Assembly (NCBI RefSeq): GCF_949769285.1
Contig: NZ_OX458331.1
Coordinates: forward strand, 372,001-436,000
Source of the DNA: Anaerococcus sp. Marseille-Q7828
GTDB lineage: Bacteria > Bacillota > Clostridia > Tissierellales > Peptoniphilaceae
Length of the DNA stretch: 64,000 bases
Reading direction: 5' to 3'
Positions 59,505 to 62,023 of this stretch are shown here, piece after piece. Position 1 is the first letter of the stretch, and each line of letters opens with the position of its first letter. The notes under the pieces are model-generated. The model had not been told where the DNA came from. It did no database searches and worked only from the letters and a program-made list of their open reading frames with translations. The translations under genes and the position numbers were made by a program.

Positions 59505-59599
59505 AGAGGGTTTTCGTGACAAGTGTATATTTGTACTAAAAAAGACTCAGTCAAAAGACTAAGTCTTAATTATTTAGCAACTTCCTACTATACCGGGCT
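59505..59599 (-). pseudogene. rRNA-operon tail remnant: 5S 3' end plus terminator (copy 3)
   Basis: Read on minus: a 5S 3' end (59576-59599, CCGGTATAGTAGGAAG), a spacer, a terminator-like stem (plus AGACTCAG / AAGACTAAGTC, 59543-59568), and a flank ending with plus GGTTTTCGTGACAAGT. The same order follows the intact 5S at 61631-61688, so this is a displaced copy of the operon tail. The 5S stops matching at CCGGGC, where a repeat element begins. Confidence 0.75.
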
Positions 59600-59675
59600 T
59601 AAATATGCCTTGATTTGGACCCTATATGTAGCGGGCGGCTAGTTATTTAAGGCTAAAACTGAGTGCAGTTAAAAA

Positions 59676-59757
59676 CCCATTGATTTTGGGCTTTTAACCC
59701 GAAAAATTAGTGCGGCAGCACGGCGAGGTTCGATAGAACCGATTTTCGTAGAGCACG
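59676..59757. repeat. 82-bp direct repeat, copy 1
   Basis: Matches 61315-61396 with 6 differences in 82. Contains small palindromes (GTGCGGCAGCAC, GGTTCGATAGAACC) and starts CCATTGATTTTGGG. Downstream it continues into GTTTGC / GCAAAC (59763-59778). Non-coding; likely a structured element. Confidence 0.85.
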
Positions 59758-59830
59758 TAAGAGTTTGCGTAAGCAAACGTGTTTAAGCGGATCGGTCCTA
59801 AAGGAGGCGGACGGCCTTCACCTTTGGTGA

Positions 59831-59869
59831 ACCACTCCGTGGTGGGTCCTCCCCTGGCCGGAAGGGCCT
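59831..59869. repeat. Short two-hairpin repeat, copy a
   Basis: ACCACTCCGTGGTGGGT followed by CCTGGCCGGAAGGGCC. Same order and pattern as copies at 59913 and 61489, with compensating base changes in the stems. Confidence 0.7.
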
Positions 59870-59874
59870 GCTTT

Positions 59875-59969
59875 CGAGTACCATCGGCGTTATGAGGCTT
59901 TCGGCTTCGCCGACCATTCCATGGAGGGTGCTTTATGAGCCGCACGGGCTAATTTTCTGTGTTCGGTAT
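59875..59969 (-). pseudogene. 5S rRNA middle fragment split by repeat element
   Basis: Plus-strand CGAGTACCATCGGCGTTATG and GAGGCT (59875-59900) and TTCTGTGTTCGGTAT (59955-59969) match the intact 5S (61729-61765) in order. In the intact gene only a few bases separate these parts; here a 54-nt insert carrying the short repeat (copy b) lies between. After 59969 the match ends. Confidence 0.75.
59913..59950. repeat. Short two-hairpin repeat, copy b (inside 5S fragment)
   Basis: ACCATTCCATGGAGGGT then AGCCGCACGGGCT. Inserted in a 5S-derived sequence. Confidence 0.75.
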
Positions 59970-60134
59970 ACATAAACACCCGTTGATTTCGGGTCCAGGA
60001 GTTCGGACACAATCGTTTATGCCGAAAACTGAGTGCAGATAAAAGTCCATTGTGGTAAGGATACAGTAAATAGTACAATTTAAAATCGAATATCTGATAC
60101 AATAAATAATAAGAAATCAAAGGGGGATTTTAAA

Positions 60135-60410
60135 TTGGCTAGACACTACGAAGAAGACTTCAAGAAACAGATGGTAGAAATCTTTAACCAAGGTAACTAC
60201 ACATATAAAAAATTGGGAGAAGAATACGACATAGCACCATCAACAATAAGAGATTGGGTTAATAGATACAACAACTCAAATTCCTTCGACATTGATGATA
60301 ATAGAACAGAAGAAGAAAAGGAATTAATCAAACTAAGAAAAAAAGTAAAACAGCTTGAAATGGAAAATGATATTTTAAAGCAAGCTGCACTACTACTAGG
60401 CAAAAAGTAA
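60135..60410 (+). CDS. IS3-family OrfA
   Basis: 91 aa. Helix-turn-helix [22 protein letters not shown] and a C-terminal leucine coiled coil ([25 protein letters not shown]). The start is TTG at 60135, eight bases after AAAGGGGG. The last codons before the stop (GGC AAA AAG TAA) overlap the orfB frame. Confidence 0.88.
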
Positions 60411-61261
60411 AGCTCATAATCTCAAATAGGGATAAATACAGTACTAGTGCAATGTGTAAGTTTTTAGGTATACCAAGAAGTTTAATATACTATCATCTAA
60501 ACAAAAAAGAATCAAAATATAACCTAAAAACCGAAGAGCTTTTAGAAGAAAAAATCAAAGAAATATTCAGGAAAAGTAAAAATGCATATGGATCAAGAAA
60601 AATCAAAGTAGAGTTGGAAAAACAAGATATCATAGTATCACGAAGAAAAATATGCAGAATAATGAAAAAACATGCCTTAGTATCAAGCTATACAGTAAAA
60701 CAATACAAGGTAGAAAAAACCACATGTAACAATAAAAAGATTAATAACAAGATAGATAGACAATTTGACAATAGGCCATCTTTACAAGCATGTGTAAGTG
60801 ACTTAACTTACGTAAGAGTAGGAAATAGTTGGAACTACATCTGTGCAATAATAGATTTACACAATCGAGAAATAATAGGATATGCAGCAGGAAAAAATAA
60901 GAGCGCAGATTTAGTAAAAGAAGCAATATATTCAATCAAGTACCCATTAAATAAAATAAAAATATTTCACACAGATAGAGGACGAGAATTTGACAACAAA
61001 AGCATAGATAAAATTCTAGACATATTTGGCATAGAAAGATCCTTAAGTGGAAAGGGAAGTCCATATGATAATGCAGTAGCTGAAGCATTTAATAAGGTGA
61101 TGAAAACAGAATTTGTTTATCAGAAAGAATTTAAAAACTTAAAACAACTAAAATTAGAACTATCAGAATATGTTTATTGGTACAACAACCTAAGAATCCA
61201 TGGATCCTTAGGTTACTTGTCACCAGTTAAATATAGAAACCAAATCTTAGCTAGTAACTAG
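60407..61261 (+). CDS. IS3-family transposase OrfB (-1 frameshift)
   Basis: 284 codons from the overlap with orfA; the ATG at 60452 is internal to this frame. DDE core: Asp in ACVSDLTYV, Asp in [12 protein letters not shown], Glu in [14 protein letters not shown], then [21 protein letters not shown]. The slip probably occurs at C-AAA-AAG (60401-60407). No internal stops, so it may be active. Confidence 0.9.
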
Positions 61262-61314
61262 TTAAAATTATAATGGTGCGATCGATTTTAGATTGTACAA
61301 ATAGGTGTTGACAA

Positions 61315-61396
61315 TCCATTGATTTTGGGCTCTTAACCCGAAAAACTAGTGCGGAAGCACGGTGAGGTTCAATAGAACCGATTTTCGTAGAGCACG
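61315..61396. repeat. 82-bp direct repeat, copy 2
   Basis: About 93% identical to 59676-59757. It continues into GTTTGC-GAA-GCAAAC (61402-61416) and GGTTTTCGTGACAAGT, then a second copy of the terminator-like stem (61446-61474). Confidence 0.85.
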
Positions 61397-61488
61397 GCAG
61401 AGTTTGCGAAGCAAACGGGTTTTCGTGACAAGTAAATATTTGTACTAAAAAAGACTCAGCCAAAAGACTAAGTCTCTCACTTCGCTCG

Positions 61489-61526
61489 ACCATTCCATGG
61501 AGGGTCCTCCACTAGCCGGACGGGCT
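61489..61526. repeat. Short two-hairpin repeat, copy c
   Basis: ACCATTCCATGGAGGGT, CCTCC, then AGCCGGACGGGCT. It separates a terminator copy (61446-61474) from a 5S 3' fragment (61538), two parts that are adjacent in the other tail copies, so it was probably inserted there. Confidence 0.78.
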
Positions 61527-61537
61527 TTCTTTTATTC

Positions 61538-61559
61538 AGCAACTTCCTACTCTACCGGG
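61538..61559 (-). pseudogene. 5S rRNA 3'-end fragment (copy 2)
   Basis: Minus CCCGGTAGAGTAGGAAGTTG matches the 3' end of the intact 5S. It ends at the same base as copy 3 and is followed by the same TTAAATATGCC sequence. Confidence 0.75.
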
Positions 61560-61562
61560 CTT

Positions 61563-61634
61563 AAATATGCCTTGATTTGGCATATTTGCCCCGGAAAGTA
61601 GCGCGGATAAGCCTTCGTAGAAGGCGACTTTCCG
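61563..61634. repeat. Nested palindrome element downstream of 5S terminator
   Basis: Three perfect stems in 72 nt: AAATATGCC / GGCATATTT (61563-61587); CGGAAAGT / ACTTTCCG (61592-61634) enclosing GCCTTC-GTA-GAAGGC (61611-61625). Non-coding, strongly folding as RNA or ssDNA. Part of it (TTAAATATGCC) is shared with 59600. Confidence 0.8.
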
Positions 61635-61651
61635 TGACAGGTGTATAAACT

Positions 61652-61680
61652 AAAAAGACTTAGTATAAAAACTAAGCCTT
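61652..61680 (-). terminator. Terminator of the rRNA operon
   Basis: On the minus strand AAGGCTTAG pairs with CTAAGTCTT (one G-U), followed by TTTTAG, 8 nt after the 5S 3' end. Confidence 0.85.
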
Positions 61681-61687
61681 AATTATT

Positions 61688-61799
61688 TGGCGATTTCCTA
61701 CTCTACCGGGAGGTCGCCCTCCGAGTACCATCGGCGTTATGAGGCTTAACTTCTGTGTTCGGTATGGGTACAGGTGTATCCCTCATGCAATCATCACCA
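61688..61799 (-). rRNA. rrf: 5S ribosomal RNA
   Basis: 112 nt. Ends pair as TGGTGAT / ATCGCCA. Internal landmarks: GGGATACACCTGTACCCAT, CCGAACACAGAAGTTAAGCC, CGCCGATGGTA and CCGGTAGAGTAGG. Full-length and complete, unlike the fragments downstream. Follows the 23S by about 240 nt on the same strand. Confidence 0.93.
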
Positions 61800-61963
61800 T
61801 ATTTAATTTATGAACCATGTTCGTAAATTCCTTATTGTTTGAACCTTTAAATAGCGTTCAGTAAAACTTACCTTCATACAGATTGATTATTCATACGATT
61901 GGTTCGTAAGTGTCTACCAAGCTTAAGACCTACGGTCTTAACCATTGGGACACTCTGAACGAG

Positions 61964-62023
61964 GACCTACCATCAATTTGTCCTCAATAAGCCGGACGGG
62001 CTAACTACAAATTGGGTTAGGTC
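61964..62023 (-). repeat. Long hairpin with short repeat (copy d) in 23S-5S spacer
   Basis: GACCTA / TAGGTC and CAATTTGT / ACAAATTG stems enclose AGCCGGACGGGCT (61990-62002), the same motif as in the repeats downstream of the 5S. A second small hairpin AAGACC-TAC-GGTCTT lies at 61925-61939. The structure may serve as a processing stem. No tRNA is present in this spacer. Confidence 0.7.

Follow-up and report, generated by a model that had tools for sequence, protein, structure and literature searches.

Folded repeats nested among 5S rRNA gene remnants behind a ribosomal RNA operon of Anaerococcus

The question raised by this locus is why the tail of a ribosomal RNA (rRNA) operon is followed by a series of 5S gene pieces, and what broke them. 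The window, that is the whole stretch of 64,000 nucleotides (nt) analysed here, was taken from the genome of Anaerococcus sp. Marseille-Q7828 (G000; a single contig, C1, of 1,946,085 bases) and corresponds to G000:C1:372001-436000. One of the four rRNA operons of this genome lies at the window end on the minus strand, so that the order 23S, 5S and tail runs from right to left. On that strand, downstream of the intact 5S gene, 5S pseudogene pieces and copies of the operon tail are broken by at least two unrelated families of structured repeats, here named family A and family B. We consider it probable that the region represents 5S pseudogenes broken by genus-restricted, modular, structure-dependent, non-autonomous mobile repeats which nest in one another, and the repeats themselves seem to form a family of small mobile sequences not described before. 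For both families compensatory change, many copies, nesting in each other and in remnants of 5S or transfer RNA (tRNA) genes, and variable presence were observed.

Layout and folds of the repeats

In the sense direction, the intact 5S (61801-61685) is followed by a terminator-like stem, a family B element, a 5S 3' fragment, a family A unit and another terminator-like stem. Thereafter come a second B element cut by an insertion sequence (IS) of the IS3 type (about 61312-60053) and the remainder of a B element, then a 5S fragment, an A unit, a 5S fragment, an A unit and an extra A core, and at the end a third B element, a short pseudoknot variant, a 5S 3' fragment and a terminator-like stem. The insertion sequence was assigned to the IS3 type by its inverted ends and its matches to the HTH_Tnp_1, rve and HTH_21 domains. 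This element, which splits the region, and the extra cores at 59795-59817 and 59619-59640 are additions to the first-pass annotation of the window.

That annotation had described repeated operon tails, and these were recovered, with small coordinate shifts, as three pairs: 59492-59566 with 61401-61475 (88% alike), 59539-59597 with 61652-61710 (85%) and 59570-59618 with 61532-61580 (96%). The 5S fragment said to be split by a repeat copy was found as well, with an A unit at 59899-59950 between 5S pieces at 59875-59900 and 59955-59971, the first of which equals 61722-61747 letter for letter. For the two-hairpin unit the copies stand (59829, 59911, 61487 and a half at 61980), but the structure is a pseudoknot plus hairpins, of which the half copy has only the pseudoknot core. 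Likewise the 82-bp repeat is real, but it extends over 102 nt (59668-59769 and 61307-61408, 90% alike) and belongs to a separate element of about 85 nt. Whole-genome searches for the window repeats gave 26, 26 and 51 matches, self matches counted.

The core of family A, obtained from profile searches and a pairing scan of own-genome loci, is 23 nt long and reads AGCC-Y-GTCC-GGCT-NNNNGA-GGAC. It is made up of stem 1 (AGCC/GGCT, 4 bp), one mostly-pyrimidine base, stem 2 (GTCC/GGAC, 4 bp) and a loop usually of 6 nt with a GA end; stem 2 crosses stem 1, which gives a compact H-type pseudoknot. Stem 2 occurs in variants in which both sides change in step (GTGC/GCAC, CTCC/GGAG, GCGC/GCGC, CCCC/GGGG and GCCC/GGGC). 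From the real loci the pairing scan returned 43 rows, including a few that were antisense or departed from the consensus, against 0 in one single-base shuffle of 14 loci. In 30 own-genome cores 238 of 240 cells were paired (99.2%) and covariation was 0.226 against 0.058 after shuffling, most of these rows having come from the scan that itself required pairing.

In the relatives the cores were collected by a covariance model in which stem 1 was given as pairs and stem 2 as sequence only. This model gave 145 matches in 90 loci, 139 of them without length change, which reduce to 99 distinct cores. Stem 2 is paired in 97.2% of the cells of these cores (shuffle mean 86.6, maximum 88.9) and carries 27 two-sided changes (mean 2.7, maximum 9 in 1000 shuffles). 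The final loop base ahead of stem 2 is A in 99 of 99.

Some family A copies consist of the core without further modules, and the size of a unit ranges from about 23 to 120 nt. Type I units add a CCAT-GGA-ATGG hairpin and a variable one to the core, and type II units continue with a hairpin, the sequence ACCGCA and a second hairpin. ACCGCA is unpaired and invariant in all 12 hand-picked type II units, and across the four helices of these 12 sequences 96.8% of the cells are paired, with 40 two-sided cells against 13.1 shuffled.

Family B, of about 85 nt, has an outer stem enclosing two hairpins (a three-way junction), after which comes a hairpin whose stem reaches 11 bp and whose loop is mostly AAATCAA. 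In 21 sequences 96.8% of 560 cells are paired, and two-sided changes number 87, where shuffling gives 22.8. Pairing in the last hairpin reaches 99.6%, and 8 of its 11 pairs have changed on both sides. The 5' arm of this hairpin receives small inserts, at 59619-59640 and 59994-60014 in the window and, by reading, at loci L265, L272, L305 and L337. Covariation in both families thus bears out the earlier impression that the stem changes are compensatory.

Distribution and sites of the copies

Family A (E up to 0.01) was found in 27 of 31 genomes of the genus and in 0 of 99 other genomes of the bacterial family, with 1-44 matches per positive genome. At the same threshold G000 has 44 matches in the family-wide scan, which used stricter filters, and likewise when searched alone. 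Family B (E up to 0.001) was found in 26 of the 31 and weakly in 5 of the 99, these weak matches (one or two each, E about 1e-6) belonging to two other genera. From genome to genome the number of A copies follows that of B only loosely (Spearman 0.29, p 0.11), and four genomes with at least 30 B matches, A. hydrogenalis included, have only 1-3 A matches. A pattern scan across genome contigs gave at least 119 stretches; of the 80 listed, 25 are from Anaerococcus and 55 from other taxa with one match each, the latter being judged as chance by pattern length alone. In window positions 54000-64000 and loci L061-L063, L065, L264 and L341, neither A nor B was matched by any Rfam 15 family above the gathering score, and no description of these repeats in Anaerococcus was found in the literature searched, from which subscription journals were largely absent.

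The first-pass annotation had proposed that small palindromes are mobile and favour the DNA of rRNA operons. This proposal is largely right though incomplete. The enrichment is present and the sites differ between species: of 46 own-genome A matches, 26 have a tRNA or rRNA gene no more than 300 nt away, where 0.92 would be expected from sequence length, and 24 of the 26 are in sense. The expectation is the whole-genome length fraction, with no correction for tandem copies or for a restriction of insertion to non-coding DNA. The 46 are the 51 own matches minus the five weakest (E above 0.4). The preference has to be extended to tRNA genes, some copies lie directly behind protein genes (groEL for example) or within a transposase gene, and the repeats fall into no fewer than two structural families that are unrelated, one of which contains a pseudoknot. 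In the relatives 69 of 145 A matches are within 400 nt of a stable RNA (57 sense, 12 antisense), which is not a fair estimate because the loci were chosen around the ends of rRNA (rrn) operons and around best-scoring matches.

At tRNA genes the spacing is narrow. Among 179 A matches (34 own, 145 of relatives), the 5' side of the core is 0-20 nt away from a tRNA edge in 33, several of which are one site in different species. All 33 have a gap of 3-8 nt, 24 being sense copies at a tRNA 3' end and 9 antisense copies at a tRNA 5' end. A few other copies begin 3-6 nt past a stop codon, including that of groEL (Cpn60 match) in two species. The flank 5' of the core is A-rich and AARYW-like. CCA was tried as a general target motif and rejected: the two closest 6-nt bins had counts of 21 and 27 of 176, and the remaining six had 10-28. 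The tight placement against tRNA genes is therefore particular to copies with tRNA neighbours.

Such placements suit an explanation in which the repeats work in cis as RNA elements of stable-RNA and messenger RNA transcripts (for example as signals for processing or as barriers to exonucleases), selected in place and rarely duplicated. The predominance of sense copies near stable RNA in G000, the constant distance from tRNA ends, the starts right after stop codons, the invariant ACCGCA and the retention of one-site copies with compensated changes are all in its favour, but it has to accommodate antisense copies at tRNA-Cys, tRNA-Asp and tRNA-Arg, positions that vary among the operons of one genome and among species, four of 31 genus genomes without a match, and copies within pseudogenes and a transposase gene family. 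The abutment itself could stem from very short tRNA spacers (as in A. hydrogenalis), if these are ancestral. We regard this explanation as possible but on the whole unlikely.

The 23S intervening sequences of bacteria are structured extra sequence in a variable region of the 23S gene. A family A core within the 23S gene of rrnA (G000:C1:257394-257424), where the Rfam match has 3184 nt against 3132 in rrnC and rrnD, resembles them, but it belongs to a dispersed repeat family. The copy within a transposase gene family (DDE_Tnp_1, DUF772) is one own copy, and six more members of that gene family, in genome G034 and A. provencensis, have the core in the corresponding position, making 7 in three genomes (L074, L260, L298, L299, L311, L312 and L313); the frame is open across the core in at least L311 and L313. 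No empty copy of this gene was found, there being no other close copy in G000 and the copies of G034 and A. provencensis being filled as well.

Filled and empty sites were compared between species and within G000. Among the matches listed, the differences between species are a 58-nt insert after tRNA-Phe and a 93-nt insert beside tRNA-Arg (both G000 versus A. provencensis), a 60-nt insert in the 16S leader with long flanks (A. octavius versus G000), and an 81-nt difference at tRNA-Cys which includes the neighbouring terminator-like stem (G000 versus A. marasmi). Within G000 a copy occupies the 23S-5S spacer hairpin of rrnB and of rrnD but not that of rrnC, where the AATTTG..CAAATT stem has a short loop only, and a 16S leader hairpin holds a copy in rrnC but not in rrnB.

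Tandem growth is also seen. In A. sp. Marseille-Q5996 three head-to-tail units stand at tRNA-Cys, against one in A. sp. mt242, and 5S tails are tandemly repeated at 219-nt spacing. These tails, together with the 85-96% likeness of the tail copies in the window, are what could be expected if the mosaic came solely from repeated rrn recombination, which the first-pass annotation had also offered, and tandem duplication of the operon tail. Such duplication does contribute; as a complete account it is refuted because copies of A and B are found at many places far from any rrn operon. The 5S is moreover broken at several points and sites elsewhere are filled or empty between species, so that recombination as the sole source is highly improbable.

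Weighing the explanations

The ends of rrn operons are hard to assemble, and a collapse of several such ends into one could give a false mosaic. The window, however, is part of a single-contig genome with four different operon ends, and in A. provencensis (locus L315) an orthologous mosaic was found, in which window positions 60052-59793 match 511-770 at 96.9% (260 nt) and 61451-61316 match 378-516 at 90.6%. The insertion sequence is absent from L315, and CAATGG, which flanks it on both sides in the window, is present there once. By reading, the L315 pieces are one 5S pseudogene split at four points. The presence of this mosaic without the IS speaks against an assembly artefact, which we consider barely conceivable; absence from other assemblies was the point on which the first-pass annotation was to fall, and among the relatives A. 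provencensis supplies the opposite.

Under the reading of nested mobile repeats, strand-specific folded sequences would have been moved or copied into transcribed stable-RNA loci, further multiplication may have come through tandem duplication, and the fold may be the feature recognised by the moving machinery. A number of results weigh against it. The cores are not independent, as 146 matches (one own) fall into 86 shared-flank groups through tandem copies, orthology and a shared carrier, in a count made by hand with short-flank matches taken as singles. The transposase-borne cores spread with their carrier and hence represent fewer independent insertions. Copies are common to several species at one site (the tRNA-Cys flank in five, a 16S leader site in three), which fits retained function as well as mobility. 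The filled and empty differences are unpolarised by a tree, and some may be deletions; at the sites listed, inspection by eye showed neither target-site duplications nor terminal inverted repeats in any consistent way. Targeting of hairpin feet was rejected, since in the upstream 40 nt the final paired base fell no more than 3 nt from the 5-nt leader at 46% of 173 sites, against 35-48% in shifted controls. Lastly, no mobilising enzyme was found.

As regards such an enzyme, the repeats might be elements of the kind called repetitive extragenic palindromic (REP), moved as single-stranded DNA by a Y1 transposase (IS200/IS605 or RAYT). Strand-specific folds and the orientation bias in rRNA and tRNA loci agree with this, and Y1 matches occur in 21 of the 31 genus genomes, with 7 in G000, six of which are equal in score, which suggests a recently active IS200-type element. 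Copy number, however, barely tracks the Y1 count (Spearman 0.33, p 0.07, 31 genomes), five genomes with 4-18 A copies, some of them drafts, have no Y1 match, and the repeats have no terminal GTAG or CGTC tag. The correlation and the copy-bearing genomes without Y1 leave a Y1 transposase unsupported as the necessary mover, and we hold the whole explanation to be very unlikely.

In a further proposal family A is a new class of structured RNA turned mobile, which settles at the ends of tRNA, 5S and protein genes and whose RNA would act on the host transcript and be needed for its own spread. A nuclease barrier, a processing signal or a ribozyme might be its role, and the second hairpin of type II ends in GAGG. 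We find this proposal, with the roles named in it, doubtful.

Known repeats, feature list and further elements

Modular build is known from the BOX elements, which are composed as boxA-boxB-boxC. BOX, RUP and SPRITE of pneumococcus are small interspersed structured repeats, judged parasitic and nearly absent from other streptococci (PMC3049150); going by description alone, A and B are distinguished from them by host and siting and by the pseudoknot, which the abstract of that paper does not have. In the sections available of PMC3733652, REP and REPIN with RAYT are presented as GTAG- and CGTC-tagged palindromes; they are dispersed folded repeats of 20-40 nt, mostly downstream of coding regions, often grouped and heterogeneous within a family, and in this respect are like family A. 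Family A differs in that its core is a pseudoknot and not a simple tagged palindrome and in its preference for stable RNA, and the grouped A copies looked at are head-to-tail, whereas REP units are mostly paired in inverted order. That text of PMC3733652 has no mention of Anaerococcus.

The only CGTC-like string of family A is in the loop of stem 1, where it is variable (CCTCC, CGTGC, CGCGC), and no terminal REP tag is formed. Family A is short, repeated and without its own transposase, as miniature inverted-repeat transposable elements (MITEs) are; by eye, no inverted ends stand around the units, stem 1 being local. Family A was filed under neither REP nor MITE because it is without the terminal tag of the one and the inverted ends of the other.

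As far as the passages available of PMC2229807 describe them, Rickettsia palindromic elements (RPE) are long stem-loops of 105-146 bp with terminal inverted repeats. Like A and B they are small structured repeats, in their case named for one genus, which occur within RNA genes and also, keeping the frame, within protein genes; A and B differ by their modular, nesting pseudoknot units. In those passages the CIR repeats of Caulobacter and Brucella share two folded arms with a linker and a conserved fold, but they are intergenic, carry a GANTC motif and have no stated tie to stable-RNA genes; ERIC is also among the nearest kinds (PMC2229807).

Small bacterial repeats are usually described as simple palindromes, while here two families have elaborate folds, one of them a true pseudoknot, across a genus, and build nested mosaics within 5S and tRNA remnants. 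Their dozens of natural variants provide a test bed for the part of folded nucleic acid in the spread of repeats and the reshaping of stable-RNA operons. Caution is advised in typing, as rRNA and tRNA spacers may carry such inserts. The features of the mosaic are given in Table 1.

Table 1. Features around and downstream of the intact 5S gene, in window positions
Feature	Position	Strand	Basis
Family A pseudoknot core alone, in loop of 23S-5S spacer hairpin (AATTTG..CAAATT)	61980..62002	-	R1 match 433976-434006
Intact 5S rRNA gene, mosaic downstream	61685..61801	-	Rfam RF00001, 91.1 bits
Operon tail, terminator-like stem and T run	61652..61684	-	Direct reading; repeat family D4
Family B copy 1, short form within 5S pseudogene	61562..61635	-	nhmmer 46.6 bits
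5S 3'-end fragment	61531..61559	-	Repeat search; comparison with A. provencensis
Family A type I unit (pseudoknot, CCAT-GGA-ATGG hairpin, variable hairpin)	61473..61526	-	nhmmer 61.5 bits; R1 match 433500-433530
Family B copy 2, last hairpin cut by IS	61313..61427	-	61313-61387 nhmmer, rest by reading
IS3-type insertion sequence; OrfA 60135-60410, OrfB 60452-61261	60053..61312	+	Domains, inverted repeats; ends by reading
3' part of family B element; nested insert 59994-60014 in 5' arm of last hairpin	59972..60036	-	Orthologous in L315
5S fragment (ATACCGAACACAGAA)	59955..59971	-	Repeat search; comparison with A. provencensis
Family A type I unit, pseudoknot stem GTGC/GCAC, splits 5S pseudogene	59899..59950	-	Profile searches
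5S fragment identical to intact 5S	59875..59900	-	Repeat D9
Family A unit (GGCC-C-TTCC-GGCC..)	59823..59872	-	Profile searches
Family A pseudoknot core, swapped stem 1 (AGGC/GCCT)	59795..59817	-	Pairing scan, R1 search
Family B copy 3	59669..59790	-	59669-59749 R2 match 431669-431749, 82.0 bits; nested upstream start by reading
Short pseudoknot variant (AGC-C-GCCC-GCT-ACATATA-GGGT) in family B hairpin arm	59619..59640	-	Direct reading; like forms L305, L341
5S 3'-end fragment	59570..59597	-	Repeats D4, D5
Last operon-tail copy: terminator-like stem and remnant of family B start	59505..59566	-	Repeats D2, D4

Some further elements were noted. Loci L358-L363, from two other genera of the bacterial family, have B-like elements in which the junction is kept and the last loop is different. 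Four of these six loci are within about 250 nt of matches to the Rfam small RNA family SpR18 (RF02446), and in L362 the B-like element lies directly against the end of a frame that was read as guaA-like. A third repeat family (GACCTAACCC..GATGGTAGGTC..GTCGC..GCCGAC) is present in many loci, for example L061, L066, L068 and L276, and also in tRNA-Glu remnants and 23S-5S spacers. At L063 (G000:C1:1862670-1863150) three tandem 160-nt repeats lie beside an intact tRNA-Asp and represent, by reading, degenerate tRNA-Asp with an inserted structured segment. Behind the rrnC tail (L062, G000:C1:1096200-1098800) a regulator-like and a metal-transport ATPase-like frame were read, and a like regulator frame was read after an rrn tail in A. 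sp. Marseille-Q5996.

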